The translations under genes and the position numbers were made by a program. From NCBI RefSeq assembly GCF_005845365.1, contig NZ_CP040509.1:1302001-1366000 (forward strand): a stretch of 64,000 bases of DNA, given 5' to 3'. Shown in pieces: positions 18,396 to 34,232 of this stretch (positions are counted from its first letter, which is position 1; each line of letters starts with the position of its first letter). This DNA is from Rhodoluna limnophila. GTDB lineage: Bacteria; Actinomycetota; Actinomycetes; Actinomycetales; Microbacteriaceae. The notes below the pieces were generated by a model, which saw only the letters and a list, made by a program, of their open reading frames with translations, was not told the origin of the DNA and did not search any database.

Positions 18396-18429
18396 TGATT
18401 CTCTCCTTTGAGCTTTATTGCTAAGTCTG

Positions 18430-18455
18430 TTGGAGCGCTCCAATGGAGCGCTCCA
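18430..18455. promoter_or_regulatory. tandem LacI-type operator
   Basis: Two palindromes abut: TTGGAGCGCTCCAA (18430-18443) and TGGAGCGCTCCA (18444-18455), with centres 13 bp apart. They lie between the divergent LacI gene (18559) and the Gfo/Idh/MocA-led operon (18395), so they may serve both promoters. The half-site TGGA...TCCA is shared with other operators in the region. Confidence 0.8.
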
Positions 18456-18545
18456 ACTCAAAGTAGCATTACGCCCCGAGAGAAGGAAGCGACTTTACCG
18501 AAATGTTATTTTGTCCTAACAAACAAAACTCGGCTCCTAATCGGC

Positions 18546-19582: not shown

Positions 19583-20545
19583 TTAGCGCCAGCGGGCTGC
19601 CAGGTAGTCAGCCTTCACGCGGCGGATGGTGCCCGAACGCGAACGCAGAATGATGCTGTCAGTGGTTAGGTAATCGCCGTGCTTCTGCACACCGTCAAGC
19701 AGCAAACCATCGGTCACGCCGGTGGCCACAAAGTAGGTGTTGTCACTCTTGACCAGGTCGTCCATTTCAAAAATCCGGTTCAAATCGTGACCAGCTTCAA
19801 TGGCCTTCTTCATTTCTTCTGGTGACTGCGGGGCAATGCGGCCCTGCATAAATCCGTTTAGCGCCTTGGTGGCACATGCCGTGATGGTGCCCTCTGGTGC
19901 GCCGCCGATACCGAGGAGCATGTCGATGTTTCCGCCTCCGGTTACAGCGTGAATTCCGGCAGCAACATCGCCGTCTAGAAATAGGCGGGTGCGGCCACCG
20001 GCGCGACGAACTGCTTCTTGAAGCGGCACGTGACGTGGTCGGTCGATCATTGCAACTGTGATGTCGCTGACATCTTTTTTGAGCGCCTTGGCAAGCTCGC
20101 GCACGTTTTCTTCTGGGCTCTGGTCCAGGCTTACGGCACCGCGGCCAGCCGCCGAGGTAACCAGCTTGTCCATGTAGAAAACGTCTTGTGGGTTGTACAT
20201 TGAACCGCGGTCAGAGACTGCGATAACTGAGATTGCGTGAGCACGACCTGATGCGGTTACTGAGGTTCCGTCTACCGGGTCTACTGCAACGTCACACTCT
20301 GGCCCGTTACCGTTACCAACGACCTCACCGTTGAAGAGCATCGGGGCTTCATCTTTTTCACCCTCGCCAATGACCACCGTGCCGGCAAAATCTACGGTTG
20401 AAAGAAATTCGCGCATGGCATCAACGGCAGCTTTGTCTGCCGCGTTTTTGTCACCGCGCCCAATAAATGCGCTGGCCTTGATGGCTGCTGCCTCGGTCGC
20501 ACGAACAAGCTCCATGCCTAGGTTGCGGTCTGGCTTTGTGTTCAT
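19583..20545 (-). CDS. glpX: fructose-1,6-bisphosphatase, class II (GlpX)
   Basis: This 320-aa enzyme removes phosphate from fructose-1,6-bisphosphate for gluconeogenesis. The GlpX signature is visible as VVIGEGEKDEAPML, DVAVDPVDGTSVTASGR and LFLDGDVAAGIHAVTGGGNIDMLLGIGGAPEG. The ATG at 20545 has AAAGGAG upstream. It is divergent from iolG and shares the operator-containing intergenic region. It would be needed to make hexoses when the cell grows on C3 products such as those from inositol. Confidence 0.93.
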   Translation of the reverse strand: MNTKPDRNLGMELVRATEAAAIKASAFIGRGDKNAADKAAVDAMREFLSTVDFAGTVVIGEGEKDEAPMLFNGEVVGNGNGPECDVAVDPVDGTSVTASGRAHAISVIAVSDRGSMYNPQDVFYMDKLVTSAAGRGAVSLDQSPEENVRELAKALKKDVSDITVAMIDRPRHVPLQEAVRRAGGRTRLFLDGDVAAGIHAVTGGGNIDMLLGIGGAPEGTITACATKALNGFMQGRIAPQSPEEMKKAIEAGHDLNRIFEMDDLVKSDNTYFVATGVTDGLLLDGVQKHGDYLTTDSIILRSRSGTIRRVKADYLAARWR

Positions 20546-20587: not shown

Positions 20588-20617
20588 TTGTTTTTTGGGA
20601 ACCAGAGACACTAGTCT
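20588..20617 (+). promoter_or_regulatory. putative iolG promoter
   Basis: TTGTTT (20588-20593) and TAGTCT (20612-20617) are separated by 18 nt. The -10 box is immediately followed by the operator TTGGAACGGTCCAT, which begins at its last base. Confidence 0.4.
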
Positions 20618-20630
20618 TGGAACGGTCCAT
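20617..20630. promoter_or_regulatory. LacI-type operator upstream of iolG
   Basis: TTGGAACGGTCCAT is a near-palindrome of the form TGGA-N4-TCCA. It directly follows a candidate -10 box, so it overlaps the expected transcription start. It matches the operator at 30041 and the one at 31214. Confidence 0.75.
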
Positions 20631-20696
20631 TATTTTGGCCCCAAAACCTTCAACGGCAAAACAGCAACCAGATTCAACACAGACAAAGGAGTCATC

Positions 20697-21704
20697 GTGA
20701 GCAGCAAAGTACGTATCGGCCTAATTGGAACCGGCCGCATTGGCCAGGTTCACGCAGCAACGGTTGCGGCATCTGCGAATGCAGAGCTCACCTGGGTTTG
20801 CGATGTATTTCTAGAAGGCGCCGAGAAGACCGCTGCTCAGTATGGCGGCAAGGCCACCAACGACCCTGCAGCTGTTTTTGCCTCTGGCGAGGTTGACGCA
20901 GTGATCGTTGCAGCACCGACTTCAACTCACATTGATCTAATCAGCGCTGCGATTGATGCTGGTGTTCACGTGCTTTGCGAGAAGCCAATTGACCTAGACA
21001 TCAACCGAGTCGACAGCCTTCGCGCCAAGGCAAATGCGGCCAGCGTCAAGATTGCACTTGGCTTCAACCGCCGCTTCGACAAGCAATTTAGCGAGATTCA
21101 GTCACGTGTTGCTGCCGGAGACATCGGCAAGCTAGAGCAGCTAACCATCATCAGCCGCGACCCAGCCCCAGCGCCAAAGGCCTACCTTGAGGTTTCAGGC
21201 GGAATCTTCCGCGACATGACCATTCACGACTTCGACATGGCCCGTTTCTTTGTACCAAACATCGTTGAGGTGAGTGCAGCAGGTGCAAACATCTTTAGCG
21301 ACGACATCCGTGAAATTGGCGACTTTGACAGCGTGGTTGTAACCATGAAGGGTGCCGGCGGAGAGCTAGTTACCATCATCAATTCACGCCACAGCGCCTA
21401 CGGATACGACCAGCGCCTTGAGGCGTTTGGTGCTGACGGTGCATTGTTTGCCGAGAACGTGGCCCCAACCACAGTCAAGCTTTCGACCAACAAGGTTGTT
21501 GAAGCTCGCAACCCATACATGGAGTTCTTCTTGGAGCGCTATGCGTACTCATACAGCCACGAACTTGAGCAGTTCATCACCAGCATCGCTAACGGTGAGG
21601 TCTTGAACCCGACCTTCGAGGACGGTCGCGCGGCTTTGGTCCTGGCTGACGCCGCACAACTTTCGGCAACCACCGGCAAATCAGTCAAGGTTGACCTCAG
21701 CTAG
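20697..21704 (+). CDS. iolG: inositol 2-dehydrogenase-like Gfo/Idh/MocA oxidoreductase
   Basis: This 335-aa dehydrogenase starts KVRIGLIGTGRIGQVHAATVA (Rossmann). It carries the EKP motif (HVLCEKPIDLD) and the substrate-site segment GGIFRDMTIHDFDMARFF, where the HD(F)DM motif is typical of IolG and related inositol dehydrogenases. It oxidises myo-inositol to 2-keto-myo-inositol with NAD+. The start GTG at 20697 has AAAGGAG 5 nt upstream. A longer in-frame extension would cross the operator and was rejected. It belongs to the inositol regulon by its operator. Confidence 0.88.
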   Translation: MSSKVRIGLIGTGRIGQVHAATVAASANAELTWVCDVFLEGAEKTAAQYGGKATNDPAAVFASGEVDAVIVAAPTSTHIDLISAAIDAGVHVLCEKPIDLDINRVDSLRAKANAASVKIALGFNRRFDKQFSEIQSRVAAGDIGKLEQLTIISRDPAPAPKAYLEVSGGIFRDMTIHDFDMARFFVPNIVEVSAAGANIFSDDIREIGDFDSVVVTMKGAGGELVTIINSRHSAYGYDQRLEAFGADGALFAENVAPTTVKLSTNKVVEARNPYMEFFLERYAYSYSHELEQFITSIANGEVLNPTFEDGRAALVLADAAQLSATTGKSVKVDLS

Positions 21705-21717
21705 TTTTGAGTAAGCA

Positions 21718-21749
21718 AAAAGGCCCGAGAGCGATTCTCGGGCCTTTTT
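21718..21749. terminator. bidirectional intrinsic terminator
   Basis: AAAAGGCCCGAGA-GCGAT-TCTCGGGCCTTTTT is a perfect stem flanked by A and T runs. It sits between iolG (plus) and the epimerase gene end (minus, 21779), so it can end both the iolG transcript and the long iolD-iolE operon. Confidence 0.92.
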
Positions 21750-21778: not shown

Positions 21779-22741
21779 TCAGCTTTCGGGCTGGGTCAAC
21801 GATTTGATCTGGCCTGTCTCCAACTCGTCTTTGAACGCGGTAAGCACCTGGCGCACCGACTGCGGAGCAATGCCCAGAGCCTTCTTTGTATACGTGTTGT
21901 CGAGCGAACTATCTACTGGAACCGGCCCAGGAAACAACTCTGACGCCGGAGGTTCAACTTCTTTCAGCAAACCAGGGTCGAGGTTAAAAATCTCACACAC
22001 CAGGTTGGCTAGTTCCATGCGGCTCACTGCATCATCACAAACCAAGTGGAATGTGCCGCTGCAATTTCGTGAAATTACGCGCTCAACCTGAGCCCCAATT
22101 TCTGCCGCAAGTGATGGCGTGGTGACTTTATTTACGTGCTCACCACCCCAAACCTCAAAGACGTTTCCGGCACTGATGCTCTCTACTAACGAGTGCACGA
22201 AGTAGCCAAAGCCAACATCTTGTGACCTCGGGCTCTCAGCTAGTTGATGCTTGCCCATCACTCCGGCAATCCGGCAAATAGCCCCATTCTCGGGTGCCAA
22301 ATCACGGATGACCTGCTCACCCAGCGCTTTCAAGAAACCGTAAAAGTTGACCGAATTGCCTTTGTCAGACTCGACTACTTTGTGCTGAGTGCCATCTAAC
22401 ACCCAGTCGGTTGAAATGTAGATTGGTTTTGCACCAACCGCATTGGCGGCTCTAATCACTCTTGAAGTCATGCCGACTAGAGAGTCGTAGGCATAATCGC
22501 GATCCGCTACCAGCCGGTTGAACTCGTTGGCAATCGCACAGTGCACCACTGCATCGCAACCGCGCAGAGCCTCAGCGATTGATTGAACATCCGAGAAGTC
22601 AACAACAGCTACCTCCCAAGGAACAGCAAAGTCGGGACCCCTGCGCCCCAACCCCACAACCTCGTGACCGTATCGCTGAAGGATTGCGGCTATGTTGCTG
22701 CCGACAAATCCGGTTGATCCGGTTACTGCAATTTTGGCCAC
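21779..22741 (-). CDS. NAD-dependent epimerase/dehydratase (SDR, RmlD-like)
   Basis: This 320-aa extended SDR has the Rossmann motif TGSTGFVGSNIAAIL (residues 7-21) and a YxxxK catalytic pair in FYGFLKALGEQ, with STDWVLDG before it as in RmlD/WbpP-like enzymes. It is the last gene of the seven-gene iol operon. In that context it may act as a sugar or uronate dehydrogenase, since uronate dehydrogenases are also SDRs, but the substrate is unknown. The GTG start at 22741 lies close behind the iolE stop. Confidence 0.78.
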   Translation of the reverse strand: MAKIAVTGSTGFVGSNIAAILQRYGHEVVGLGRRGPDFAVPWEVAVVDFSDVQSIAEALRGCDAVVHCAIANEFNRLVADRDYAYDSLVGMTSRVIRAANAVGAKPIYISTDWVLDGTQHKVVESDKGNSVNFYGFLKALGEQVIRDLAPENGAICRIAGVMGKHQLAESPRSQDVGFGYFVHSLVESISAGNVFEVWGGEHVNKVTTPSLAAEIGAQVERVISRNCSGTFHLVCDDAVSRMELANLVCEIFNLDPGLLKEVEPPASELFPGPVPVDSSLDNTYTKKALGIAPQSVRQVLTAFKDELETGQIKSLTQPES

Positions 22742-22753
22742 GATGATCTGTGT

Positions 22754-23653
22754 TTACTGTTCTTCAGCTAGCTCTTTGGCCACCGCTCTGATGAACTCAA
22801 CGCTCTGCTTGGCTTCGGCAAAAGGTCCGGCGCCCTCGCCAGGCTCGGCTGTAATTACGTTGTCTTGCTCAAGCACAAACCAGCCGTCAAACCCAGATGA
22901 AATTAGGTTTCGCACGATAGATCGAACATCTACGTCACCGGTACCAAGCGGAACATACATGCCCTCGAGAATGCCCTGATAGTAGGTGATTTCGCCGGAC
23001 TGCACGCGGTCGGCAACCGCAAGGTTTACATCCTTCAGGTGTGAGTGAGCAACACGGTTGGCATACTTTGCAGCAAACTCAACTGGGTCTGTTCCACCAA
23101 TTATCATGTGGCCAGTGTCTAGGCAGAAATCGATGTTTGAGCCCTCAAGTACGGCCATAACATCGGCCTTGGTTTCAACCATGGTGCCAACGTGCGGGTG
23201 AAGAACAGCCTTTACGCCTTGGGCCGCAGCTGCCTGCTGGATCCTGTCAAGGTTCTTGAAAAATACATCCCAGCCAGCCTCGTCAAGGTCTGGGCGCTTA
23301 GTGTCGTATCCGACCAGGCCGGTCTCGGCAGAAAGAACCAAGGTCTTGGCGCCTGAGGCTGCATAGCTCTCTAGCTCTTTTAGAACCGCAGGTAGTGGGT
23401 CAAAATCAGCCTGGTGCATGACAATCGGAAAAAACCCGCCAACGGCCTCCATACCGTGGGCAGCCAAAACGGCCGCGCGGTCTGCCGGCTCAACCGGCAA
23501 AAATCCGAGTGGACCAAACTCAGTGGCGCCTAGTCCAAGTTCAGCCATTTCACGCAGCACACGCTCAGGACCCATTTGGTGGCCCCAGTTAGGCACTTCA
23601 CAAACACCCCAAGAAATCGGGGCTCCGGCAATTTTTACAGCTGGTGTTGACAT
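22754..23653 (-). CDS. iolE: inosose dehydratase
   Basis: This 299-aa TIM-barrel enzyme carries the IolE hallmark GAPISWGVCEVPNWGHQ at residues 11-27. The metal-site region appears later as AVLHPHVGTMVE, DFCLDTGHMIIGGTDP and VAHSHLKDVNL, with a C-terminal GWFVLEQDNV. It removes water from 2-keto-myo-inositol to give 3D-(3,5/4)-trihydroxycyclohexane-1,2-dione. It is located between the 2-hydroxyacid dehydrogenase and epimerase genes in the operon. Confidence 0.93.
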   Translation of the reverse strand: MSTPAVKIAGAPISWGVCEVPNWGHQMGPERVLREMAELGLGATEFGPLGFLPVEPADRAAVLAAHGMEAVGGFFPIVMHQADFDPLPAVLKELESYAASGAKTLVLSAETGLVGYDTKRPDLDEAGWDVFFKNLDRIQQAAAAQGVKAVLHPHVGTMVETKADVMAVLEGSNIDFCLDTGHMIIGGTDPVEFAAKYANRVAHSHLKDVNLAVADRVQSGEITYYQGILEGMYVPLGTGDVDVRSIVRNLISSGFDGWFVLEQDNVITAEPGEGAGPFAEAKQSVEFIRAVAKELAEEQ

Positions 23654-23666
23654 TGGTTTCTGCTTT

Positions 23667-24581
23667 CTACTTTTTTGCTAATGCTTGAGGTTTGCGGCCT
23701 TCCAAAGAATCTCTGACTCCCTGGGCGGCATCGATAAAAGTCTGCTTAGTTGATTGAACACTTAGACCCATCACGTGAGGTGTGAGCACCACGTTTTCGT
23801 GTTCAAAGATCTGGTGGTGCGCGGGTGGTTCAGGGTCAAAAACATCTAGGCCAAGACCGCCAAGTTTGCCACTTCGCAAAGCATCATGTGCTGCATCAAG
23901 GTCAATCAGAGCGCCACGCCCGCAATTAATCAGCACAGCACCCGGCTTGAACTGAGCCAATAGATCGGCATTAACCAGCTGATTTGTGGCTTCGGTGAGG
24001 GGCACGTGCAACGAAATAACATCACTGGCAGCCACTAGTTCTTCGATGCTGGAGGCTCTTTGATCCTCGGGAATCTGCGCAAATGGGTCATACGCCAAAA
24101 CCTTCATGCCAAATGCCTTGGCAAGCTCGGCAACTCGGCGCCCAATTCTGCCAAAACCCACAATGCCAAAAGTCTTTGACTCAAAGTCACCAACTGAATA
24201 CTTAGTCCGCTGATCCCAATTTCCGTTGGCCACTAACTTGGTCAGTGGGCCAAGCCGCTTGGTCAAGTGCAATGCATGGGCCAGCGCACCCTCGGCAACC
24301 GCATTGGTGTTGCTGCCTGGAGTTATGACAACATCTATTCCGCGTTCTTCGGCCACATTTAGGTCAACCAGATCGGTTCCAACACCGGTTCTAGCAAGCA
24401 CCCTGAGGTTGGGCATTTTGGCAAATTGGGCTTGGTCAAACACAAAAGCCGCTCGCACAATGGCACCGCTGGCCTCAGCAATATCGGCGTCGGTCGGGTG
24501 TTCAACAAACTTCATTGCGTCGCCAAGCACCGGCTGAACCACATCTGATTCAACCGGCCCAAGACCAACGACAATTTGCAT
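23667..24581 (-). CDS. D-2-hydroxyacid dehydrogenase family protein
   Basis: This 304-aa NAD-dependent dehydrogenase resembles SerA/GhrB-type enzymes. The nucleotide-binding motif is FGIVGFGRIGRRVAEL, the substrate-binding Arg lies in INCGRGALID, and the catalytic Glu and His are seen in DVFDPEPP and LTPHVMGLS. It is 4 nt upstream of the Gfo/Idh/MocA gene end and 13 nt from iolE. It is not part of the classical inositol pathway. It could oxidise a deoxy-aldarate or reduce hydroxypyruvate to glycerate. Confidence 0.85.
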   Translation of the reverse strand: MQIVVGLGPVESDVVQPVLGDAMKFVEHPTDADIAEASGAIVRAAFVFDQAQFAKMPNLRVLARTGVGTDLVDLNVAEERGIDVVITPGSNTNAVAEGALAHALHLTKRLGPLTKLVANGNWDQRTKYSVGDFESKTFGIVGFGRIGRRVAELAKAFGMKVLAYDPFAQIPEDQRASSIEELVAASDVISLHVPLTEATNQLVNADLLAQFKPGAVLINCGRGALIDLDAAHDALRSGKLGGLGLDVFDPEPPAHHQIFEHENVVLTPHVMGLSVQSTKQTFIDAAQGVRDSLEGRKPQALAKK

Positions 24582-24584
24582 TAA

Positions 24585-25796
24585 TTACTTCTTTGCTGAG
24601 GTGGTGCCTGCAACAGGCTCAACGGTTACCCACTGCTTTGATTCGGCTGATTTTTCTGCAGCTGAGATCACACGGGCTGATGCAACGGCATCGTGAATGT
24701 TTGAGTTCAATGACTTGCCACCGATGTAAGACTCAAGGAACTTGCGTGCCTCGATGGTCTTTAGGTCGTCGTAGCCCATGCCGGTGCCGGCACCAGGCTG
24801 GAAGTTTGCGAAGTCGCCAAAACCAGGCGCAACCATTACGCGCTGGTAACCAAGGTGGTCGCCGCGGCGTCCAATAGCAACCTGAAGCTCGTTCATGCGC
24901 TCAAAGTCCCACTTCAATGAGCCCTCGGTGCCATAAATTTCAAAGTTGTAGCTGGCGCGTGGGCCAACGGCAACACGAGATGCCTCTAGAGTGCCAAGAG
25001 CACCGGCTGCAACTGCGTCATCAGCAAACCGAACCAGCATGCCTCCATAGTCTTCGTTCTCTACCGGGCCCTTCTCGCCACCTTCGATAACGTCAAAGTG
25101 GGTACCCACACCCATCTGCTGAATTGGTCGCTCAGTGTAAACAGTCTTGGTGAATGCCGAAACCTCGGCAATTGGGCCAACCACGTAGTGCATTAGGTCA
25201 GCAAGGTGACCCATCAGGTCACCCAGCACGCCGCTACCGGCTAGCTTGCGAACAAATCTCCATGACAGTGCGCCGTTTGGCTCTGATGAGTAGTCGGCAA
25301 AGAAGGTTCCGCGAAGGTTTGTAATGCGGCCAAGTTGGCCCTCAGCGATGATCTTCTTGGCGTGCTCAACGGCTGGTGCATTGCGATAGTTGAAACCGAT
25401 GGTTGAAACCACACCAGCTTCGTTCGCAGCAGCTTCAACGGCCTCGGTCTCTTCGGCACCGCGGCCAACTGGCTTTTCAATCCAGAATGCCTTGCCAGCC
25501 TTTGCTGCTGCAATACCGATCTCAGCGTGCAAGAAATTTGGTGCACAGATAGATACGACTTCTACATCTGGGTGATTCAGAACATCGTGGTAATCCAGAG
25601 TGCCCTGCTCGTAACCCAAAACATTCACAGCGTAGTCAACACGATCCTGCGCGGTGTCGGCAGCAATGATTAGTCGTGGCTTAATGCCAAGTTCTGGGTA
25701 GACAACCGGCACTGACTGGTAGGCACGGCTGTGTACTTTACCCATCCAGCCAACACTGATTAGGCCAACGCCAACGGTGCGAGGTGTATTTGACAT
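24585..25796 (-). CDS. Gfo/Idh/MocA-family oxidoreductase (second in the iol operon region)
   Basis: This 403-aa enzyme has the Rossmann start GVGLISVGWMGKVHSRAYQSV, the EKP motif (FWIEKPVGRG) and GDLMGHLADLMHYVVGPI in the substrate domain. It is related to scyllo-inositol dehydrogenases and similar enzymes of cyclitol catabolism. It is longer than IolG (335 aa) and resembles the 401-aa paralogue encoded at 17190-18395. It probably handles another inositol stereoisomer or a pathway intermediate. It lies within the iolD-iolE operon. Confidence 0.82.
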   Translation of the reverse strand: MSNTPRTVGVGLISVGWMGKVHSRAYQSVPVVYPELGIKPRLIIAADTAQDRVDYAVNVLGYEQGTLDYHDVLNHPDVEVVSICAPNFLHAEIGIAAAKAGKAFWIEKPVGRGAEETEAVEAAANEAGVVSTIGFNYRNAPAVEHAKKIIAEGQLGRITNLRGTFFADYSSEPNGALSWRFVRKLAGSGVLGDLMGHLADLMHYVVGPIAEVSAFTKTVYTERPIQQMGVGTHFDVIEGGEKGPVENEDYGGMLVRFADDAVAAGALGTLEASRVAVGPRASYNFEIYGTEGSLKWDFERMNELQVAIGRRGDHLGYQRVMVAPGFGDFANFQPGAGTGMGYDDLKTIEARKFLESYIGGKSLNSNIHDAVASARVISAAEKSAESKQWVTVEPVAGTTSAKK

Positions 25797-25799
25797 GTT

Positions 25800-26567
25800 C
25801 TACTTTCTGATTTCGGTTACTGCGTCTGAAATTGCTTTTGCCATCAGTGTTGAATCTGAACCAATGGCAATAAATCTAAAACCCATCTCTACATAGGTGC
25901 GTGCGATGCTCGTGTCGGACGCCAAAATACCCGCGACTTTTCCGTGGGCCGCGGCGGCAGCAAGCACCTTGCTCAGTGCGTCTTGAAAAATTGGGTTCTT
26001 GAAGTCTCGCGGAACACCAAGTGCAAAGCTCAAATCCAGCGGCCCCACGAATAGGGCATCCACTCCAGAAATTGCCGCGATCTGCTCAACTTGGGCTAGC
26101 GAACTCAATGTTTCAATCTGAATGATGCATGCGGCCTTGCTCTGTGGCTGAAGCGCATCGATGTCTCTACCCCAGGCAACAGCGCGATTATATGTTGCAA
26201 CACCGCGGTCACCATTCGGCGGGTAACTCATGTGCTTCACAGCCTCTTGAACCTGAGCAACCGAGTCAACCCGAGGCACCATCACGCCTGCAACACCGGC
26301 ATCAAGGGCGCGTCCGATGCGAATGCGCTCCGCCGATTCCACGCGAACCAATGTCGGTACGCCGTAGCCACCAGAGGCAACCACAGTTGGCGAGACCTGC
26401 TCTTCGCCGCCACCGCCGTGCTCGAGGTCTAGAAGAACCCAGTCAACGCCGTTCACTGCTGCAACCTCTGCGGCCAAAGGTGAGGCCAATCCCAAGAAGG
26501 TGCCAACGGTTAGTTGACCCTGCTTAAGGGTTTCTAAGAAGCCGCCGCGGCTCAGTGGAGATGCCAT
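25800..26567 (-). CDS. HpcH/HpaI-family aldolase
   Basis: This 255-aa class II aldolase has FLGLASPLAAEVAAVNGVDWVLLDLEHGGGG near the start, VPRVDSVAQVQEAVKHMSYPP, the metal-binding QIET stretch, and GVDALFVGPLDLSFALGVP. Such enzymes cleave 4-hydroxy-2-oxo acids into pyruvate or hydroxypyruvate and an aldehyde. The start ATG shares one base with the iolD stop (TAATG), so translation is coupled. Canonical inositol catabolism uses IolJ instead, and no iolJ is found here. The true substrate is unknown. Confidence 0.87.
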   Translation of the reverse strand: MASPLSRGGFLETLKQGQLTVGTFLGLASPLAAEVAAVNGVDWVLLDLEHGGGGEEQVSPTVVASGGYGVPTLVRVESAERIRIGRALDAGVAGVMVPRVDSVAQVQEAVKHMSYPPNGDRGVATYNRAVAWGRDIDALQPQSKAACIIQIETLSSLAQVEQIAAISGVDALFVGPLDLSFALGVPRDFKNPIFQDALSKVLAAAAAHGKVAGILASDTSIARTYVEMGFRFIAIGSDSTLMAKAISDAVTEIRK

Positions 26568-28540
26568 TAGTAGTGGAATCTCTGAGTCTTGAGACCGGCG
26601 TTGTAGTCATCTGCGGTTGCCTGAATCCAAGGTGAGTTCTCGTGTACCTCGGCTGGCGCGACGTCCCACCAAACTTCAGAAGCAGGGAGGTTAGCGTGAG
26701 GAATGGTTGGCACCACAATCACAACTGGGCCTGATTCCTCGCGGGTGTCATCAAGCACCTTGGCGAATTCGGCAGTGGTGGTTGGGCGGAATGCCTTGGC
26801 ACCCATACCCTCAGCCATCTTCACGATGTCTAGGAACAGGTAGTCGCCCTCAAGACGAGGAGCCTTTCCGCCATTTTGAGCAGACTCGGTAACTACCGGG
26901 CCATCCTGACGGTAACGGAACTCGTTGCCGAAGCTGTTGCCCACTCGCCACATCTGTAGGCGGCGAATCACTTGGTAGCCGTGGTTTTCAGAAACCACGA
27001 TGGTCAGTGGCAAACGCTCCTGAGCCGCGGTCACCAATTCAGTTGGTGCCATAGTCCAGGTTCCGTCACCAATGAAGGTGGTGACGCGGTTTGCTGGGTT
27101 TGGGTTTGCTAGGCGAACACCGATGGCCGCTGGCAACTCGTAACCCATGCAAGAGAAACCAAACTCAAGGTGCGCAAAGCGGCCTTCAGTTGCATCCCAG
27201 ACTTTCTGCACGTCTCCAGGAGGACCACCCGCACCGGCGATGATTACGTCACCCGAGCGGCTGTGGTTCTGCAGCACGCCAAGCAACTGACCCTGGGTCA
27301 TGGTCGCATCGGTGTCTTCAGAGAATGCCGGGTCAAGGGTTGACTTGTCGAAGGTGTAGTTGACATCAAGAGCTGCGTTGCGGGCCTTTACCCAAACCGC
27401 GTTCTTCTCAACAACTTCTTGAGTCCATTCTGCAGGCACTTTATAACCAGAAACCGCCTTGGTTAGCGCTGCGAGGGCAAGCTTTGCGTCGGCCACGATC
27501 GTGGTTGCACCCTGCTTGATGCCGTCAAATTCGGAGACGTTGATTGACACGAACTTGACATCTGGGTTCTTGAAAATTGACTGCGATGCAGTGGCAAAGT
27601 CTGTCAAGCGAGTACCAACGTGAATGATTAGATCCGCTTTGTTGGCCAACTTGTTGGTTTCAGGTGAACCCTCAAGACCAATTCCCCAGGCCGCCCAGTC
27701 AGCCTTCTTTTGGACGGCACCCTTGCCACCAAAAGTCTCGGTTACTGGAATACCGGTTGCATCGGCAAGAGCCTCAAGTTCTGCGGTTGCGTTTGAGTAG
27801 ATGACTCCTCCACCGGCAATAATCAGTGGGTTCTTGGACTGCTTGATGGCTGCAGCAACTTCTGCAACTTCGTCAAGGCTTGGCTCTGGGCGGCGAATCT
27901 TCCAGTCGTGCGGCTCAAAGAAACTCTTCGGAAAATCAAATGCGTGCGACTGGACATCCTGTGGCAAAGAAATTACTACTGCACCGGTTTCAACCGGGTT
28001 TGCCAAAACACGGAATGCCTTTGGCAATGAATAAAGCAACTGCTCTGGTCGGTTGATTCGGTCAAAGAATCGCGAAACCGGGCGGAAAGCGTCGTTCACA
28101 GTTAGATCTGGTGCGGTTGGGTTTTCTAGCTGCTGCAGCACTGGGCCTTGGCGGCGAGTTGCATAGGTGTCGCCAGGCAGTAGCAAAAGAGGAATCCGAT
28201 TAACTGTCGCGGTACCTGCTGCAGTCACAAGGTTGAGGGCACCCGGACCAATCGATGCGGTAACAGCAATCACCTGAGTGCGGCGGGTCTGCTTGGCAAA
28301 AGCTGTTGCGGCGTGACCAAGCGCCTGCTCGTTGCGGCCCTGAACAAATGGAAGCTCATCACTCAGCTGGTCGAGGGCCTGACCGAGGCCGGCCACGTTT
28401 CCGTGGCCAAAAATGCCCATCGCTGCCGGAACAAAACGCTTGCGAACACCATCGGTTACTGAATACTGAGCCGCGATGTACTTTACAACCGCCTGTGCAA
28501 CTGAAAGGCGGATTGTTTCTCCGTAGTTTGGATCAACCAT
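26567..28540 (-). CDS. iolD: 3D-(3,5/4)-trihydroxycyclohexane-1,2-dione hydrolase
   Basis: This 657-aa thiamine-diphosphate enzyme opens the ring of the dione to 5-deoxy-D-glucuronate. IolD marks include GHGNVAGLGQAL (N-terminal), VTASIGPGALNLVTAAGTATVNRIPLLLLPGD and a ThDP/Mg motif near GDGTWTMAPTELV, with SENHGYQVIRRLQ in the C-terminal part. The ATG at 28540 with AGAGGAAAG upstream gives a normal-length protein, and extending to 28687 adds an unrelated tail. It sits behind the aldehyde dehydrogenase gene and overlaps the aldolase gene by one base. Confidence 0.93.
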   Translation of the reverse strand: MVDPNYGETIRLSVAQAVVKYIAAQYSVTDGVRKRFVPAAMGIFGHGNVAGLGQALDQLSDELPFVQGRNEQALGHAATAFAKQTRRTQVIAVTASIGPGALNLVTAAGTATVNRIPLLLLPGDTYATRRQGPVLQQLENPTAPDLTVNDAFRPVSRFFDRINRPEQLLYSLPKAFRVLANPVETGAVVISLPQDVQSHAFDFPKSFFEPHDWKIRRPEPSLDEVAEVAAAIKQSKNPLIIAGGGVIYSNATAELEALADATGIPVTETFGGKGAVQKKADWAAWGIGLEGSPETNKLANKADLIIHVGTRLTDFATASQSIFKNPDVKFVSINVSEFDGIKQGATTIVADAKLALAALTKAVSGYKVPAEWTQEVVEKNAVWVKARNAALDVNYTFDKSTLDPAFSEDTDATMTQGQLLGVLQNHSRSGDVIIAGAGGPPGDVQKVWDATEGRFAHLEFGFSCMGYELPAAIGVRLANPNPANRVTTFIGDGTWTMAPTELVTAAQERLPLTIVVSENHGYQVIRRLQMWRVGNSFGNEFRYRQDGPVVTESAQNGGKAPRLEGDYLFLDIVKMAEGMGAKAFRPTTTAEFAKVLDDTREESGPVVIVVPTIPHANLPASEVWWDVAPAEVHENSPWIQATADDYNAGLKTQRFHY

Positions 28541-28557
28541 TTTGTTGCTTTCCTCTT

Positions 28558-30000
28558 CTAGTTCCACGCTTGGCCGTGCATGATCACGGTTTTCACTTCG
28601 GTCATTTCGGCAATTGCTGAACGCAGGCCTTCTTTTCCAATTCCGCTGGACTTGACTCCGCCATAAGGCATTAGGTCTGCCCGCCACAGTTGAGTCCAGT
28701 TGATGTGCACAACGCCGGACTCAATCTCGCGCATGGCCTGAATTGCAGAGTTCATGTTGTGGGTAAAGACCCCGGCGCCAAGGCCATAGATTGTGCTGTT
28801 TGCTAACTGAATAGCGTGATTGATGTCTCGAGCTGAACTCACTGCCACGGCCGGGCCAAAAAGTTCATCCTGAGCAAAAGCAGAGTAAGGATCAACGTTG
28901 GTCACAATTGCCGGCTGAATCACTGTGCCGTCTTGTTCACCTCCGGTAAGCAATTTGGCTCCGTCTTTGACTGCCTGGCTTATCGCGGCTGAGACTCGGT
29001 CAGCCTCAGCCTTTGAAATCAGTGTTCCCACCTTGGTGTCGGCTGCCAGTGGGTCGCCAACTTTGATGGCCTCAACCTTTGGCTGAAGTGCTGCCAAAAA
29101 GTCTCCCATGATGGATTCTTCGACGATGATTCTCTGTGCTGAGATGCACACCTGCCCAGCATTGATGTACCCGCCCAAAGAAATCGCGTTAGCCGCGTAT
29201 TCAATGTCGGCGTCCTTCAGAACCACAACCGGCCCCGATGCTCCTAGCTCTAGCGAGAGTTTCTTGACACCGGCGGTTCGTGAGATGTGCTCGCCGGTCT
29301 TGGTTGAACCGGTGAACGACACCTTGCGAACACGTGCGTCAGAAACTAGTGCATCGCCAAGAAGGCCTCCTGAGCCAGTCAGTACTGACAGAACTCCCTC
29401 TGGTAACCCTGCATCGATAAAGCATTGAGCCAACGCGATTGCAGTTAGCGGGGTTGCCCTTGCTGGCTTAAGCACTACCGAGTTGCCAGCAGCCAGCGCC
29501 GGAGCGAGTTTGTGCAGCACCAAAAGCGCTGGGTAGTTGAATGGGGTGATTGCAACGACAACACCTACCGGCTGCTTGATTGTGAATCCAACCTTGTCAA
29601 AGCCAGTGCCCTTATTTGCGTCCAGAGGCAGAGTTTCGCCGTAAAGCTGAGATCCCTCATAGGCAGCCAAGCGAATAATCTCACCGGAACGGCTGGCTTC
29701 ACCGCGAGCCTCGATGAGGCTTTTGCCATTTTCTGCACTGATAATTTGAGCCATAGTCTCTTGGCGCTCGTCGGCGAGGGCTGCTGCCTTGAGCATGATG
29801 GCAAATCGTTCATGGGCAGGTGTGCGGCGCCAAACTTCGAATCCAGAAACGGCTGCGTCTAGAGCAAGATTCACATCGTTTAGGTCAGCGGTGGCAACTT
29901 CGGCAACGACGCGATTGTCGAAGGGGGACCTAACCTCTTCGAATGCGCCTGACTTTGAGGGCACATCGCGCCCACCAATAATTAGGTTCTTACGCTCCAT
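28558..30000 (-). CDS. NAD(P)-dependent aldehyde dehydrogenase
   Basis: This 480-aa ALDH-superfamily enzyme has the catalytic Cys in YINAGQVCISAQR, the general-base Glu in LSLELGASGP and the cofactor-contact VSFTGSTKTGEH. The C-terminal ADLMPYGGVKSSGIGKEGL resembles lactaldehyde and non-phosphorylating GAPDH-like ALDHs more than the methylmalonate/malonate-semialdehyde type (MmsA/IolA). It is the first gene of the iolD-iolE operon, after a LacI operator. The ATG at 30000 is preferred. Its substrate is probably an inositol-derived aldehyde, by inference. Confidence 0.85.
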   Translation of the reverse strand: MERKNLIIGGRDVPSKSGAFEEVRSPFDNRVVAEVATADLNDVNLALDAAVSGFEVWRRTPAHERFAIMLKAAALADERQETMAQIISAENGKSLIEARGEASRSGEIIRLAAYEGSQLYGETLPLDANKGTGFDKVGFTIKQPVGVVVAITPFNYPALLVLHKLAPALAAGNSVVLKPARATPLTAIALAQCFIDAGLPEGVLSVLTGSGGLLGDALVSDARVRKVSFTGSTKTGEHISRTAGVKKLSLELGASGPVVVLKDADIEYAANAISLGGYINAGQVCISAQRIIVEESIMGDFLAALQPKVEAIKVGDPLAADTKVGTLISKAEADRVSAAISQAVKDGAKLLTGGEQDGTVIQPAIVTNVDPYSAFAQDELFGPAVAVSSARDINHAIQLANSTIYGLGAGVFTHNMNSAIQAMREIESGVVHINWTQLWRADLMPYGGVKSSGIGKEGLRSAIAEMTEVKTVIMHGQAWN

Positions 30001-30040
30001 TGCGATTTCTACCTTTTTTCGATGCAAAAGCTCCAATATT

Positions 30041-30054
30041 TTGGAACGGTCCAA
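30041..30054. promoter_or_regulatory. LacI-type operator of the seven-gene iol operon
   Basis: TTGGAACGGTCCAA begins the leader of the ALDH gene and lies directly downstream of the -10 box (30055-30060). A bound repressor would block transcription initiation. Confidence 0.8.
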
Positions 30055-30097: not shown

Positions 30098-31129
30098 TTA
30101 GTTATTTCGAGCGGTCAGCGTTGACTCACGGGCAACCAGTTTTGGCAATAGCAAAAACTCTTGTCCCTTGTGCGCATCAGCAAGTTCGTTATCCGCCAGC
30201 AGTTCAGCAGCTTTGTGAGCAATCGCTTCTTTTTCAGGCTCGATTGAAGTCAGAGAAACCTTGCTGAGTGCAGAGATGTAGACGTTGTCGTAACCGGTTA
30301 GCGCAACTTTAATGCCGCCCGCTTCAATCTCCTGGTCAATTGCCTCTTGTGCTCCGATGGCAATGATGTCGTTGAAGGCGATAATCGCGGTTGGCTTATC
30401 TGGCTTGCTCAATACCAATTTGGCTGCGGCATAACCACCGGCTTCTGTGCGGTCACACTGTTCGAAGAAGATTTGGTCAGCCAAGCCAGCGTCAACCATG
30501 GCTTTCTCGTAGGCAGCGTGACGACTCACCGAAACCACTTCGTCATAGGCACCGATGTAAGAAATCTTCTTGTGACCTAGGCCCATTAGGTGCTTGACCA
30601 CCAAACGCATGCCTTCTCGGTCATCGCTGCGCACAGTTATTGCGCGCGGCAGTTGGGTTGCAATACCTGTGGTCATGACCACTGGAACATTTGCGGGGAC
30701 CGACTTGAGAGCCTTGTAGTCTGGCAAGCCTCCGACCAACATGATGCTGCGCGGACGAAGATCAAGAACTGAATTTACTGTCGATGCCTCCAGCACCTTC
30801 TTGCCATTGCGCTCACTGATAACCGCTGCGGCCATGACAGTGTTGATGCCCTTTTCGAGTAGAGCCTGGCGCGTGAAGTCGGCAATCTCTGTGAAAAGTG
30901 GGTTGTGCAGGTCGGCCACAATCATGGCCACAAAGTTTGCTGACCCCGATGACAGTGAGCGTGCCCAGAGGTTTGGAGTAAAGCCCAACTTTTTGGCAGC
31001 CGCCAAAACCTTATCGCGGCGCTCTTGACTCACCCCGGTCTCACCGGCAAATACCAACGAGACCAAGGACTTCGATACACCGGCTTCGGCGGCTACGTCA
31101 CGAATGGTTGGGCGCTTGGTAACAGACAC
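30098..31129 (-). CDS. LacI-family transcriptional regulator (regulator 2)
   Basis: This 343-aa protein has a LacI HTH (TIRDVAAEAGVSKSLVSLVFAGE, from about residue 8) and a sugar-binding-like C-terminal domain (FVAMIVADLHNPLFTEIADF and onward). The GTG at 31129 with AGGAG 4 nt upstream fits the domain start. The long N-terminal extension to 31315 is probably not translated. It lies between the ALDH-led operon and the second ABC transporter, and both flanking promoter regions carry the operator TGGAACGGTCCA, so it is the likely repressor of both. Confidence 0.87.
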   Translation of the reverse strand: MSVTKRPTIRDVAAEAGVSKSLVSLVFAGETGVSQERRDKVLAAAKKLGFTPNLWARSLSSGSANFVAMIVADLHNPLFTEIADFTRQALLEKGINTVMAAAVISERNGKKVLEASTVNSVLDLRPRSIMLVGGLPDYKALKSVPANVPVVMTTGIATQLPRAITVRSDDREGMRLVVKHLMGLGHKKISYIGAYDEVVSVSRHAAYEKAMVDAGLADQIFFEQCDRTEAGGYAAAKLVLSKPDKPTAIIAFNDIIAIGAQEAIDQEIEAGGIKVALTGYDNVYISALSKVSLTSIEPEKEAIAHKAAELLADNELADAHKGQEFLLLPKLVARESTLTARNN

Positions 31130-31143
31130 GATTCTCCTGATTT

Positions 31144-31163
31144 TGGACATGTCCACGTGGACA
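31144..31163. promoter_or_regulatory. overlapping palindromes ahead of LacI regulator 2
   Basis: TGGACATGTCCA (31144-31155) and TGTCCACGTGGACA (31150-31163) overlap just upstream of the regulator 2 start. The first has the TGGA-N4-TCCA pattern of the other operators. This is consistent with autoregulation. Confidence 0.55.
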
Positions 31164-31213
31164 AAAAAACAGTACCACCGAACATGTTTAAGATTTCGGT
31201 TCAATAACGAATT

Positions 31214-31228
31214 TGTGGAACGGTCCAA
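31214..31228. promoter_or_regulatory. LacI-type operator upstream of the second ABC transporter
   Basis: TGTGGAACGGTCCAA contains the core TGGAACGGTCCA, identical to that at 20617 and 30041. It lies between LacI regulator 2 and the binding-protein gene (31331). Confidence 0.78.
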
Positions 31229-31330
31229 ATAATTTGAAATGTATTGACATACTGAAAAAGTCGTGGCCGCGTTCCCTTTGTTAGCGGCTGCACATCTAAA
31301 CAAGTAACTCATCAATGACGAGAGGCAACA

Positions 31331-32308
31331 ATGTTCAAGAAGAAATTTGCAGCAATCGCTGCAGGTGCGGCTCTGACCGCATTGGCACTAGCTGGTTGTT
31401 CAGCTCCTGCCGCAGAAACCCCAGAAGCTGGCGCAAACAGCGACATCAAGATCTGTGTTTACACCCACGGTGACGGCGGTACCTTCTGGTCAGTAGCACA
31501 AAAGGGTGCCGAGGCAGCAGCAGCTGACCTAGGCGTCGAGCTTGACTACCAGGGCTCAACCAACGATGCAGCAAAGCAGGCTTCGACTATTGAAGCCGGT
31601 GTAGCAGCAGGTTGCGACGGTATCGCAGCTTCAGCACCAGACCCAGAGGCAATCAAGTCAGCTATGTTGGCTGCCGATGCAGCAGGCATCCCGACTGTAA
31701 CCATGAACTCAGGTTCAGCAGTATTCAAGGACCTAGGCGCATTCACCCACGTTGGTCAGGATGAAATCATCGCTGGTCGCGAGGCTGGCCTTAAGTTCAA
31801 CGAGCTAGGCGTAAAGCACGTTCTTTGCCCAATCCAGGAAGCTGGAAACGTTGGTCTTGAGGAGCGTTGTGCAGGTCTTGCAGAAACCTTCAACGGAAAG
31901 GCTGAGAACTTCAACCTTGACGGTGGTCTTGCTGACCTAACCGCAGCATCTGCAAAGCTACAGGCAGCTCTAACCGCTGACCCAACCATCGATGCAGTAT
32001 TTGCTTTGAACGCAGACATCGCAGCTAAGGCTGTTCTACCTGCAGCAGAAGCAGCTGGCGTTACCTTGAAGATCGGTACCGTTGACATGTCTCCTGAGGC
32101 ACTAGACGCAATTGCAGCTGGCACCATGGAGTTTGCAATTGACCAGCAGCAGTACGCACAGGGCTACCAGTCAGTAGTTCTATTGTTCCTAAACCTAACT
32201 AACGGACACGAGCTTGGCGGTGGCCTTCCTGTTTACACCGGCCCTGGCTTCGTAACTGCAGACAACGTAGCTCTAGTCAAAGAACTAGTAGCCGCAGGTA
32301 CTCGCTAA
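31331..32308 (+). CDS. sugar/inositol ABC transporter substrate-binding lipoprotein (system 2)
   Basis: This 325-aa binding protein has lipobox LAGC (Cys23), then SAPAAETPEAG and the type I fold start DIKICVYTHGDGGTFWSVAQKG. QGSTNDAAKQASTIEAGVAAGCDGIAA and the late MEFAIDQQQYAQGYQSVVLL fit RbsB-like binders. It is the first gene of the second CUT2-type system. It differs enough from the system 1 binder to suggest another ligand of the same group. The operator upstream links it to the iol regulon. Confidence 0.88.
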   Translation: MFKKKFAAIAAGAALTALALAGCSAPAAETPEAGANSDIKICVYTHGDGGTFWSVAQKGAEAAAADLGVELDYQGSTNDAAKQASTIEAGVAAGCDGIAASAPDPEAIKSAMLAADAAGIPTVTMNSGSAVFKDLGAFTHVGQDEIIAGREAGLKFNELGVKHVLCPIQEAGNVGLEERCAGLAETFNGKAENFNLDGGLADLTAASAKLQAALTADPTIDAVFALNADIAAKAVLPAAEAAGVTLKIGTVDMSPEALDAIAAGTMEFAIDQQQYAQGYQSVVLLFLNLTNGHELGGGLPVYTGPGFVTADNVALVKELVAAGTR

Positions 32309-32336
32309 TCCATAACAGTTAAGTTCAGTACTAACG

Positions 32337-32370
32337 ATGGTGGGTTAGGTTCTCCTAGCCCACCATCGCT
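32337..32370 (+). terminator. hairpin between binding-protein and permease genes (attenuator-like)
   Basis: CGATGGTGGGTTAGG-TTCT-CCTAGCCCACCATCG is a 15-bp stem with one G-U pair, 29 nt after the binding-protein stop. It has only a short C/T tail (CTTTCTG). It could partly terminate transcription or stabilise the binding-protein mRNA. Confidence 0.7.
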
Positions 32371-32418
32371 TTCTGACTGGCAACACCCATAGTTTCAAAT
32401 AACCAAGTTAGGTATCAC

Positions 32419-33456
32419 ATGACAAAGTCGTCAGCAGTGGATGAGCGCGTAAGAAGCGCCTCACTCCTCACCAAAATTCTGCGCCGCCCCGAATTCGGAG
32501 CCTTCCTAGGTGCAGTCGCAATTTTCGTAATGTTTGCAGCCACCGACACCACTGGCAACTTTGCCAACCTGAGCGGTATTTCTGGCTGGACAGACATCGC
32601 AGCCCCAATCGGAATCGTGGCCATCGCAGTAGCACTACTGATGATTGCCGGCGAGTTTGACCTTTCAACCGGTGTACTGGTTGGAACCACCGGTCTACTC
32701 ATCGGTATGTTGGTCACCGAAGTTGGTCTAGACATCTGGACCTCCATCGTGATTGCACTGCTTTTTGCTGGAACCGTTGGTTTCATCAATGGCTACGTTG
32801 TAGTCAAAACCAAGCTGCCTTCATTTATCGTGACCCTGGCAACGTTCTTTGTTCTCAAAGGTGCGAACATGGCGTTCACCAAGTCAGTTACCGGATCAGT
32901 CCGTGTAACCGGCACCGATAAAGCTGAAGGCTTTGAAGTAGCTGAGGCAATCTTTGCTTCGAAGATTGGTGAGCCTGGGTTCCAGATCTCAATCGTCTGG
33001 TGGATTGCCATCACAGTAATCGCAACCTTCGTGTTGACCCGCACCCGCTTCGGTAACTGGATCTTCGCGGTTGGTGGAGATGCCAACGCAGCTCGCAACG
33101 CGGGTGTGCCAGTCGACAAGACCAAGATCATCCTGTTTGTTTACACCGCTCTTTCTGCAGCTCTAGTCGGCATTATGTTTGTGCTTCGACTAAAGGGCAT
33201 GCAGGCAGGTCAGGGTGTTGGCCAGGAGTTCTACTACATCATCGCTGCAGCAGTTGGTGGCACCCTTCTTACCGGTGGTGCTGGTAGCGCAATCGGTGCT
33301 TCACTCGGTGCACTCATCATGGGTATGGCCTACATCGGTATTCCATTCTCACGTTGGGACTCTGACTGGACCTCAACCTTCCTTGGTGTGATTTTGTTCA
33401 CAGCTGTAATGATCAACACCTACATCGGACGTAAAGCAAAAGGCGGCAAAAAATGA
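32419..33456 (+). CDS. sugar/inositol ABC transporter permease (system 2)
   Basis: This 345-aa CUT2-type permease is paralogous to the system 1 permease: both begin with a hydrophilic stretch and RRPEFGA. It has [19 protein letters not shown], where the usual DLSVGS is DLSTGV, and [19 protein letters not shown] as coupling loop. About ten hydrophobic segments are present. The ATPase start overlaps its stop by 4 nt (ATGA). Confidence 0.9.
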
Positions 33457-34232
33457 CCAACGCACTAGAACTAAAAAACGTTGAAAAGTCTTTCGGCAGC
33501 GTCATTGCTCTTCAGAACATCTCTGTAGAGGTTGCTAAGGGGCAGGTTACCTGCATCCTCGGTGACAACGGTGCCGGTAAGTCAACCCTGATCAAAACCC
33601 TGAGCGGTGTTCACAAGCCAAGCAAGGGTGAATTCCTATTCGAGGGTCAGCCGGTTGAGCTTTCTTCACCGCGCGACGCATTGGCCATGGGTATTGCAAC
33701 CGTGTTCCAAGACCTCGCAACCATTCCACTGATGACCGTCTGGCGTAACTTCTTCTTAGGCAACGAGATCCGCAAGGGTTTCGGCCCGTTCAAGTGGCTT
33801 GACGTAAAGCAGATGAAAGAGATCACCAAAAAGGAACTGCTCGCAATGGGCATCGACCTTCGAGACGTAAACCAGCCAATCGGAACCCTTTCGGGTGGTG
33901 AGCGTCAGTCTGTTGCTATCGCTCGCTCGGTTTACTTTGGTGCCAAGGTTCTCATCCTCGATGAGCCAACCTCAGCACTTGGTGTTCGCCAGTCTGGAAT
34001 CGTTCTGAAGTATGTTCTGGCAGCAAAGGACCGTGGAGTTTCTGTGGTTTTCATTACCCACAACCCTCACCACGCGTTCTTGGTTGGTGACCGCTTCTAC
34101 CTTCTAAACCGTGGCCGCATGTTGAACCGCTTTGAGCGCGCAAACGTAGAGCTTGAAGAACTGACCAAGGCAATGGCCGGCGGTGCAGAACTTGAGGCCC
34201 TAACCCACGAGATCAACACTGTTCGTGGCTAA
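33453..34232 (+). CDS. sugar/inositol ABC transporter ATP-binding protein (system 2)
   Basis: This 259-aa single-domain ABC ATPase has Walker [10 protein letters not shown], signature LSGGERQ, Walker [13 protein letters not shown] and a switch His in [10 protein letters not shown]. It resembles the system 1 ATPase. It has the same short form as FrcA-type ATPases rather than the double-length RbsA form. Its stop is followed by a terminator-like hairpin. Confidence 0.9.

Follow-up and report, generated by a model that had tools for sequence, protein, structure and literature searches.

We analyzed a stretch of 64,000 nucleotides from the genome of Rhodoluna limnophila (the window; positions 1,302,001 to 1,366,000 of contig NZ_CP040509.1) and, within it, an operon of seven minus-strand genes (21779-30054). 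These encode, in order, an aldehyde dehydrogenase (ALDH), an IolD paralogue (IolD2), an aldolase of the HpcH/HpaI family (HpaI), a Gfo/Idh/MocA dehydrogenase (Gfo2), a D-2-hydroxyacid dehydrogenase (D2HDH), an IolE-like protein (IolE2), and a short-chain dehydrogenase/reductase (SDR). The operon seems to be a variant of inositol catabolism that we did not meet in the literature we searched; its gene content is well supported, and from it we infer the chemistry, reaction by reaction. In the reading that we prefer, at a probability of roughly 40%, the operon encodes a kinase-free oxidative branch: 5-deoxyglucuronate would be oxidized to 5-deoxyglucarate and then to 3,4-dihydroxy-2-oxoadipate, which would be cleaved to hydroxypyruvate and malonate semialdehyde. 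An earlier note on this DNA had proposed that the operon takes the place of IolB, IolC, and IolJ; we find that interpretation partly supported.

Conservation of the operon

The genome of R. limnophila (G000) is a single contig of 1.40 Mb with a completeness of 99.9%. Open reading frame calls and family scans confirmed the compact seven-gene order that the earlier note had described: the gaps between genes are at most 17 bp, and there is one overlap of 1 bp (if the start of iolD2 is taken as the ATG at 28540).

The operon is a real, conserved unit. We compared 24 loci, namely the window and 23 relatives, all of which were selected by HpaI; 16 named loci came from one scan with this marker. One candidate (G117/L035) was left out before counting: its HpaI match has 36% identity, with no iolD beside it. 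Both iolD2 and HpaI are present at 24 of the 24 loci, and ALDH, Gfo2, and D2HDH are present at 23 each. The counts are lower for iolE2 (20 loci), the inositol 2-dehydrogenase gene iolG just beyond the operon (17), the upstream LacI-type regulator LacI2 (17), and SDR (15). Contig ends explain the missing copies of Gfo2, D2HDH, and iolE2, but not every absence of iolG and SDR, so we consider these two to be less fixed in the unit. The hosts span several actinobacterial families and include Microbacteriaceae, Kocuria, Sediminivirga, Intrasporangium, and freshwater Nanopelagicales-type metagenome-assembled genomes (MAGs). Within the family and the class, the HpaI marker is rare: it was found in 6 of 150 same-family genomes (at an E value of 1e-40 or better) and in 4 of 394 genomes of the class (at 1e-55 or better), with R. 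limnophila itself included in both counts, and at 1e-40 it was in neither of the two same-genus genomes listed.

In a tree of IolD2, all 24 rows are monophyletic (support 100/100), and the closest relative in the set of the window's IolD2 is from a Rhodoluna MAG (95% identity). Two records titled Bifidobacterium breve (L020 and L021) group with the freshwater Nanopelagicales-type MAGs in this tree and have the same gene order; their label is probably wrong.

Across the aligned relatives, the active-site residues of ALDH, HpaI, D2HDH, and IolD2 are invariant, where the choice of catalytic residues is partly our assumption. The cysteine (GQVCI) and glutamate (LELG) of ALDH, which we take to be catalytic, are invariant in 23 sequences, some of them partial. 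An arginine, a glutamate, and a histidine of D2HDH, presumably its catalytic residues, are also invariant in 23 sequences. The active-site His, Arg, Glu, and Asp of HpaI, as aligned to structure 4b5s, are invariant across 24 sequences, with roles that we assume in part. For the other part, their roles are those given in the accessible sections of PMC8560999.

Gfo2 is not specific to loci with HpaI: a Curtobacterium plasmid has matches to Gfo2 (63%), IolE2 (55%), and iolG (65%) together with an enzyme of the type of IolD1, the IolD of the classical cluster described below, and there is no HpaI in the 32 kb read. We also considered plasmids as carriers of the unit and found no support for them: among the matches listed (30 of 130 records for HpaI and 25 of 176 for IolD2), identity reached about 37% for HpaI and about 45% for IolD2, and all matches are below 60%.

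Classical inositol genes in R. limnophila and its relatives

The classical pathway for myo-inositol uses IolG, IolE, IolD, IolB, IolC, IolJ, and IolA. The operon resembles it at the start, with IolG, an IolE-like dehydratase, and an IolD, and IolA would again come at the end. It differs in lacking iolB, iolC, and an aldolase of the IolJ or Cgl0159 type and in having ALDH, D2HDH, and a pyruvate-type class II aldolase.

As the earlier note had it, iolB, iolC, and iolJ are missing from the window, but they are not missing from the genome. A full classical cluster lies at 948-962 kb, about 360 kb from the operon, and contains iolC, a Cgl0159-family aldolase, iolA, iolB, a second iolD, a TIM-barrel gene, a LacI gene, an ABC transporter, an IolE-like gene, and a Gfo dehydrogenase (iolB, iolC, the aldolase, iolD, and iolA are at G000:C1:955-962 kb). 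Its IolD (IolD1) scores 833 bits and its IolA scores 685.5 bits (TIGR01722); the aldolase takes the role of IolJ. This cluster falls under the IolCatGC definition, which, in the available text of PMC9430895, is at least three of iolB, iolC, iolD, and iolE per cluster. The operon, with iolD and an iolE-like gene and neither iolB nor iolC, falls short of it.

The classical cluster rules out that the operon replaces IolB, IolC, and IolJ in R. limnophila. The cell has two inositol systems, and the proposed branch of the operon would work beside the IolB-IolC-aldolase route, not instead of it. Beside the LacI gene of the classical cluster is a perfect palindrome, ACTAGCACGTGCTAGT, that is different from the operon's operator, and the 19 kb around that cluster contain one operon-type site (at most one mismatch), at 372, past the 3' end of the last (Gfo) gene. 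The earlier note had said that its proposal would be refuted by the classical genes lying elsewhere in the genome with matching operators; the genes do lie there, which speaks against the proposal, but the palindrome beside them is a different one.

The same proposal fared better in relatives. We use "Nanopelagicales-type" for 10 MAGs (L018-L024 and L028-L030), one of which is labelled Nanopelagicales; together with genome G429, they form one IolD2 clade (11 rows, support 100/100). When we searched 21 operon genomes, IolC was over its cut-off in 11 and the Cgl0159 aldolase was found in the same 11; both were missing from all 10 Nanopelagicales-type MAGs, whose best matches to the IolC model (TIGR04382) reach at most 158 bits versus a cut-off of 300. 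IolD2 is the only IolD over the cut-off in each of these 10 MAGs, and IolA is over the cut-off in 8. Because all 10 keep the unit without IolC and the Cgl0159 aldolase, the operon's genes apparently replace the kinase and the aldolase in these relatives. They perhaps do not replace IolB, which is present in 24 of 24 genomes tested (the 21 plus G415, G278, and G429, which have iolC beside iolB). In G429, which is 99% complete, iolC-aldolase-iolB occupies the spot where the MAGs have iolB. The simplest history is that iolC and the aldolase were lost and iolB was kept; the alternative is a gain in G429.

A proposed oxidative branch and its alternatives

As proposed, the operon would be a second, self-contained inositol system with its own LacI-type regulator and ABC transporter. 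The keto-inositol would come from IolG (from Gfo2 in the case of another isomer), IolE2 would dehydrate it, and IolD2 would open the ring to give 5-deoxyglucuronate. ALDH would then oxidize C1 to give 5-deoxyglucarate, D2HDH would oxidize the (R)-2-hydroxyl to give 3,4-dihydroxy-2-oxoadipate, and HpaI would split this into hydroxypyruvate and malonate semialdehyde, which IolA would convert to acetyl-CoA. We take Gfo2 to be a probable ring dehydrogenase, which leaves ALDH, D2HDH, and HpaI for the three steps after ring opening. D2HDH would thus carry out an oxidation, unlike in the earlier note, where it was a possible hydroxypyruvate reductase. By our own reasoning, 5-deoxy-D-glucuronate has at C2 the R configuration that a D-2-hydroxyacid dehydrogenase requires.

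The first of the proposed intermediates is suggested by genome G133 (completeness 100), where the operon has iolC-aldolase-iolB as its neighbor and the same operator motif precedes both. Because the sole IolD over the cut-off in G133 is IolD2, it is most likely IolD2 that makes 5-deoxyglucuronate there. As for the cleavage, the available text of PMC7610986, a review, tells of a screen of 571 class II aldolases in which 19 wild-type enzymes used hydroxypyruvate to form 3,4-dihydroxy-2-oxo acids; it describes HpcH/HpaI aldolases that make such products from hydroxypyruvate with C3 in the S form. By our reasoning, C3 of the proposed substrate is also S, which is a weak match.

Several observations weigh against this branch, and the main one is IolB. 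IolB is present in 10 of the 10 MAGs without IolC, and at 9 of the 9 readable MAG loci, iolB adjoins the SDR gene in divergent orientation with an operator, TTGGARCGGTCCAA, between them. (A search of this spacer for CG-centered palindromes with 7 or 8 pairs was of no help; a relaxed operator search then found TTGGARCGGTCCAA.) If the proposed branch operates, the retention of iolB is unexplained, since IolB would divert the substrate. In addition, class I glycerate kinase (PF02595) is absent from the genome of R. limnophila, from its three closest Microbacteriaceae MAGs, and from the 10 Nanopelagicales-type MAGs, with classes II and III not searched, so it is not obvious how hydroxypyruvate would enter glycolysis; class I was found in 7 of the 21 genomes. 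According to the part of PMC2063504 available, class I occurs chiefly in Gram-positives and in part of the Proteobacteria, and the other two classes are mostly in other groups. The absence of class I also disfavors the earlier note's idea that D2HDH reduces hydroxypyruvate to glycerate. The gene that it had named as the link to gluconeogenesis, glpX (class II fructose-1,6-bisphosphatase; 19583-20545), lies beside the operon in the window, L015, and L016, which is probably local synteny and not a link between pathways.

The remaining difficulties concern the assignments and the sample. HpaI, ALDH, D2HDH, and IolE2 are all under the curated cut-offs of their NCBIfam families, and ALDH is missing from the Sediminivirga locus (L026), where there is no contig end. 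The score of an IolD is no proof of an inositol substrate because an IolD on an Arthrobacter plasmid, amid hydantoinase genes, also passes the TIGR04377 cut-off (755 bits): the model spans enzymes in non-inositol settings. On that plasmid (L051, from Arthrobacter sp. StoSoilB13), the IolD adjoins hydantoinase A and B genes and an ALDH. The 10 MAGs are all drafts, and all are from one clade. Finally, a kinase at L036 scores 161 bits with a model for 2-keto-3-deoxygluconate (KDG) or 2-keto-3-deoxygalactonate (KDGal) kinase versus 149 bits with the IolC model, both under cut-off. It adjoins an aldolase of the type acting on the corresponding 6-phosphates (KDPG/KDPGal) and a sugar-acid dehydratase (736 bits, cut-off 539). 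Despite the small margin in score, we read it as a KDG kinase that is unlikely to be IolC, and, from this one match that was scanned, we judged it unlikely that the other sub-cut-off matches to TIGR04382 in the MAGs are IolC. The region at L036 (7265-15061), from a Nanopelagicales-type MAG, is a compact sugar-acid cluster of SDRs, the dehydratase (of the IlvD family), the kinase, and the aldolase.

The retention of IolB would be accounted for if IolB acted first: its product, 2-deoxy-5-ketogluconate, would be oxidized at the C6 alcohol by SDR, Gfo2, or a zinc alcohol dehydrogenase, ALDH would then give 3,4-dihydroxy-2-oxoadipate for HpaI to cleave, and D2HDH would reduce the hydroxypyruvate. 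This is consistent with IolB being kept in the MAGs that have neither IolC over the cut-off nor the Cgl0159 aldolase, with its presumed co-regulation with the operon across one operator at the readable loci, and with the arrangement in G429, which suggests that iolB may have stayed while its partners went. However, iolB of R. limnophila is in the classical cluster, with its different palindrome; the unit has no near-universal alcohol dehydrogenase but Gfo2 (23 of 24), which also occurs without HpaI; and the product of D2HDH would meet the same absence of class I glycerate kinase. We consider this order of steps rather unlikely. It is also unlikely, if a little less so, that the branch serves scyllo-, D-chiro-, or other inositols whose ring opening yields differently configured 5-deoxyuronates that IolB, IolC, and the aldolase cannot use, with oxidation and cleavage erasing the stereocenters so that one enzyme set handles all of them. 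That would suit a 1.4-Mb genome with two inositol systems that have separate transporters and LacI genes, the presence of both routes together in G133 and G429, and the similarity of Gfo2 to levoglucosan and scyllo-inositol dehydrogenases. But the IolG of the same regulon scores as a myo-inositol dehydrogenase, a substrate residue of scyllo-inositol dehydrogenase (His318) is not retained in Gfo2, and all isomers would have to be served by the one IolD over the cut-off that G133 and each of the 10 MAGs possess.

If the substrate is instead a cyclitol other than free inositol, such as an O-methyl inositol or a deoxy- or amino-cyclitol, then HpaI might act on an unrelated 2-oxo acid and release pyruvate, which is a known product of its relatives. 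Pyruvate needs no kinase, which fits the absence of class I glycerate kinase; relatives of IolD over the same cut-off are found in non-inositol contexts; and the MAG with locus L036 has its sugar-acid dehydratase elsewhere. Nevertheless, this seems improbable: IolD2 is the one IolD over the cut-off in G133 and in the 10 MAGs, iolB or iolC is under the operon's operator motif in G133 and the MAGs, and the unit itself has no sugar-acid dehydratase. Least probable is an ordinary duplication, in which the operon is a redundant second iol operon that carries along ALDH, HpaI, and D2HDH from a sugar-acid pathway while the classical route does the work. In its favor, apart from the 10 MAGs, all 14 genomes tested have IolB and IolC (and the 13 of them other than G278, those searched for it, have the Cgl0159 aldolase), and the marker is rare. 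Against it, the unit has stayed intact in several families, also in MAGs as small as about 0.8-1.4 Mb that have neither IolC over the cut-off nor the aldolase, and the active-site residues are invariant.

We prefer the kinase-free oxidative branch to these alternatives. More tentatively still, a kinase-free route via 3,4-dihydroxy-2-oxoadipate and a hydroxypyruvate aldolase of the HpaI type may be the only inositol route in the freshwater Nanopelagicales-type clade that lost IolC and the aldolase for 2-deoxy-5-ketogluconate 6-phosphate (DKGP). Because the branch erases the stereocenters of the ring, a single enzyme set could suffice for several inositol isomers.

Gene assignments, regulation, and related systems

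Table 1. Genes and candidate regulatory sites of the operon and its surroundings (positions in the window)
Feature	Position	Strand	Basis
ALDH, probably hydrolytic (non-CoA), the operon's first gene	28558..30000	-	PF00171, 511 bits
iolD2, paralogue of thiamine diphosphate-dependent trihydroxycyclohexanedione hydrolase	26567..28540	-	TIGR04377, 759 bits (passes cut-off 715)
HpaI, HpcH/HpaI class II 2-oxo-acid aldolase	25800..26567	-	PF03328, 119 bits (cut-off 25); structures 7v8t, 4b5s
Gfo2, Gfo/Idh/MocA dehydrogenase of the levoglucosan/scyllo-inositol dehydrogenase kind	24585..25796	-	NF052479, 6a3f, 5ya8
D2HDH, D-2-hydroxyacid dehydrogenase, phosphoglycerate dehydrogenase-like	23667..24581	-	PF02826, 193 bits; 1wwk, 177 bits
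iolE2, inosose-dehydratase-like TIM barrel	22754..23653	-	TIGR04379, 166 bits (under cut-off 290); IolE structures 9zmu, 3cny
SDR, RmlD-like, accessory	21779..22741	-	PF04321, 120 bits
iolG, inositol 2-dehydrogenase	20595..21704	+	TIGR04380, 378 bits (passes cut-off 355)
LacI2 regulator, upstream of the operon	30098..31315	-	PF00356, PF13377
Sugar-type ABC transporter (substrate-binding protein, permease, ATPase)	31331..34232	+	PF13407, PF02653, PF00005
Promoter-like TTGACA-18-AAAAAT	30083-30054	-	10/12 matches, complete TTGACA
Candidate operator, palindromic 14-mer TTGGAACGGTCCAA	30041..30054		abuts the promoter's -10, one base in common
Candidate operator before iolG	20617..20630		one mismatch
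Candidate operator between LacI2 and the transporter	31215..31228		one mismatch
Bidirectional terminator with A/T ends	21717-21730 + 21736-21749		perfect inverted repeat, arms of 14 nt

The best NCBIfam match of ALDH is lactaldehyde dehydrogenase (485 bits, under the cut-off of 650). Against TIGR01722, the model for IolA and methylmalonate-semialdehyde dehydrogenase, it scores 269 bits (cut-off 448.5), and it carries the glutamate that is typical of hydrolytic ALDHs, unlike those CoA-acylating enzymes. Its start is probably the ATG at 30000 rather than the TTG at 30054. IolD2 is 43% identical to IolD1 of the same genome, and among solved structures, acetolactate synthase was the sole kind that it matched. 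HpaI scores 187 bits against the HpaI equivalog TIGR02311, under the cut-off of 368.8. The IolE-like protein of the classical cluster is, like IolE2, under the TIGR04379 cut-off (143 bits), and among solved structures, SDR gave just weak matches to RmlD or MAT2B. For Gfo2, the best model is levoglucosan dehydrogenase (324 bits, under the cut-off of 650). Its nearest structures are 6a3f, whose entry name is putative dehydrogenase and which we take to be levoglucosan dehydrogenase, and scyllo-inositol dehydrogenase (5ya8). Key residues of the scyllo-inositol dehydrogenase of Paracoccus are Lys106, Asp191, His195, Arg178, and His318, according to the available text of PMC5969746; Gfo2 retains the K-D-H triad and the position of Arg178 and has Thr at the position of His318.

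The single promoter, LacI-type operator, and terminator of the operon were found where the earlier note had placed them, as was iolG. As a class, promoter-like matches in the region are not above chance (4 found versus 5.2 expected). For the operator motif, TTGGANCGNTCCAA, the window has 5 sites within one mismatch, one of which had defined the motif; 200 first-order Markov sequences had 0.2 such sites on average and at most 2. With 3 mismatches allowed, there was no excess in the window (31 found, 30.7 expected). Near-copies of the 14-mer precede iolG and the transporter, so both seem to form a single LacI regulon with the operon. The transporter is kept beside the operon in L015, L031, L032, L033, and L034. 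The real start of iolG is likely to be downstream of the operator at 20617, and that of LacI2 is probably the ATG near 31150. The operon shares its terminator, which a simple terminator scan did not report, with the convergent iolG. Two further sites in the window, at 18430 and 18443, belong to another promoter. They are adjacent operators of the TTGGAGCGCTCCAA type and face the LacI gene of a second system (13091-18461), with a sugar-type ABC transporter, a TIM-barrel gene, and a Gfo gene similar to levoglucosan dehydrogenase; this is possibly another system for cyclitols or anhydrosugars.

Among known systems, the inositol pathway of Thermotoga maritima (Rodionova 2013) is said to be non-classical and oxidative, with IolM, IolN, and IolO and a different ring opening. 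It would share oxidation with the proposed branch and, unlike the operon, have no IolD and HpaI. In glucarate and galactarate degradation, a dehydratase makes a 2-oxo acid from the aldarate, and GarL, of the HpcH/HpaI family, cleaves it and releases pyruvate. The proposed branch follows the same sequence from aldarate to 2-oxo acid to cleavage by an HpcH/HpaI enzyme, but the operon has no dehydratase, and the proposed product is hydroxypyruvate. A known variant, in which DUF2090 is fused to IolC, likewise has a non-IolJ enzyme proposed for the IolJ step; as described in the available text of PMC9007349, it replaces IolJ only and keeps the kinase and a phosphorylated intermediate, whereas the operon's branch would have neither. 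Corynebacterium glutamicum has, as here, two inositol clusters (iol1 and iol2) and several Gfo/Idh/MocA inositol dehydrogenases. Its second cluster contains dehydrogenases and is called dispensable, and the portion of PMC9603128 available mentions no second IolD or HpaI branch. We found no literature that joins an HpaI aldolase with inositol breakdown, in a search that left most subscription journals outside.

Two plasmids carry other combinations of these genes. On plasmid P20 of Curtobacterium (L055; NZ_CP126261.1, 60.5-76.5 kb), iolG-iolE-iolB-iolD is followed by an ALDH similar to succinate-semialdehyde dehydrogenase and two transketolase halves; there are also a PfkB kinase (best as hexose kinase, under the cut-off) and phosphoenolpyruvate carboxykinase, and no gene is named iolC. 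This could be a further inositol variant, with transketolase cleaving the product of IolB. On a plasmid of Rhizobium sp. RCAM05350 (L052), an IolD from the sister group of IolD2 occurs with an SMP-30 lactonase, an SDR, and Gfo genes, and the 14 kb read contain neither iolB nor iolC; an aldarate could conceivably be formed there through a lactone. The join of L052 with L051 is flagged in the tree as perhaps due to long branches.

Predictions of inositol use from genomes rely on iolB, iolC, iolD, and iolE, and a survey that asks for three of the four, as in the available text of PMC9430895, would miss the operon on its own. Since IolC and the aldolase were apparently lost while IolB stayed under the same operator, the step of each remaining enzyme can be tested directly. 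If the oxidative branch is real, it would give hydroxypyruvate aldolases a natural role, save the ATP that IolC would consume, and show how streamlined lake bacteria could live on inositols.

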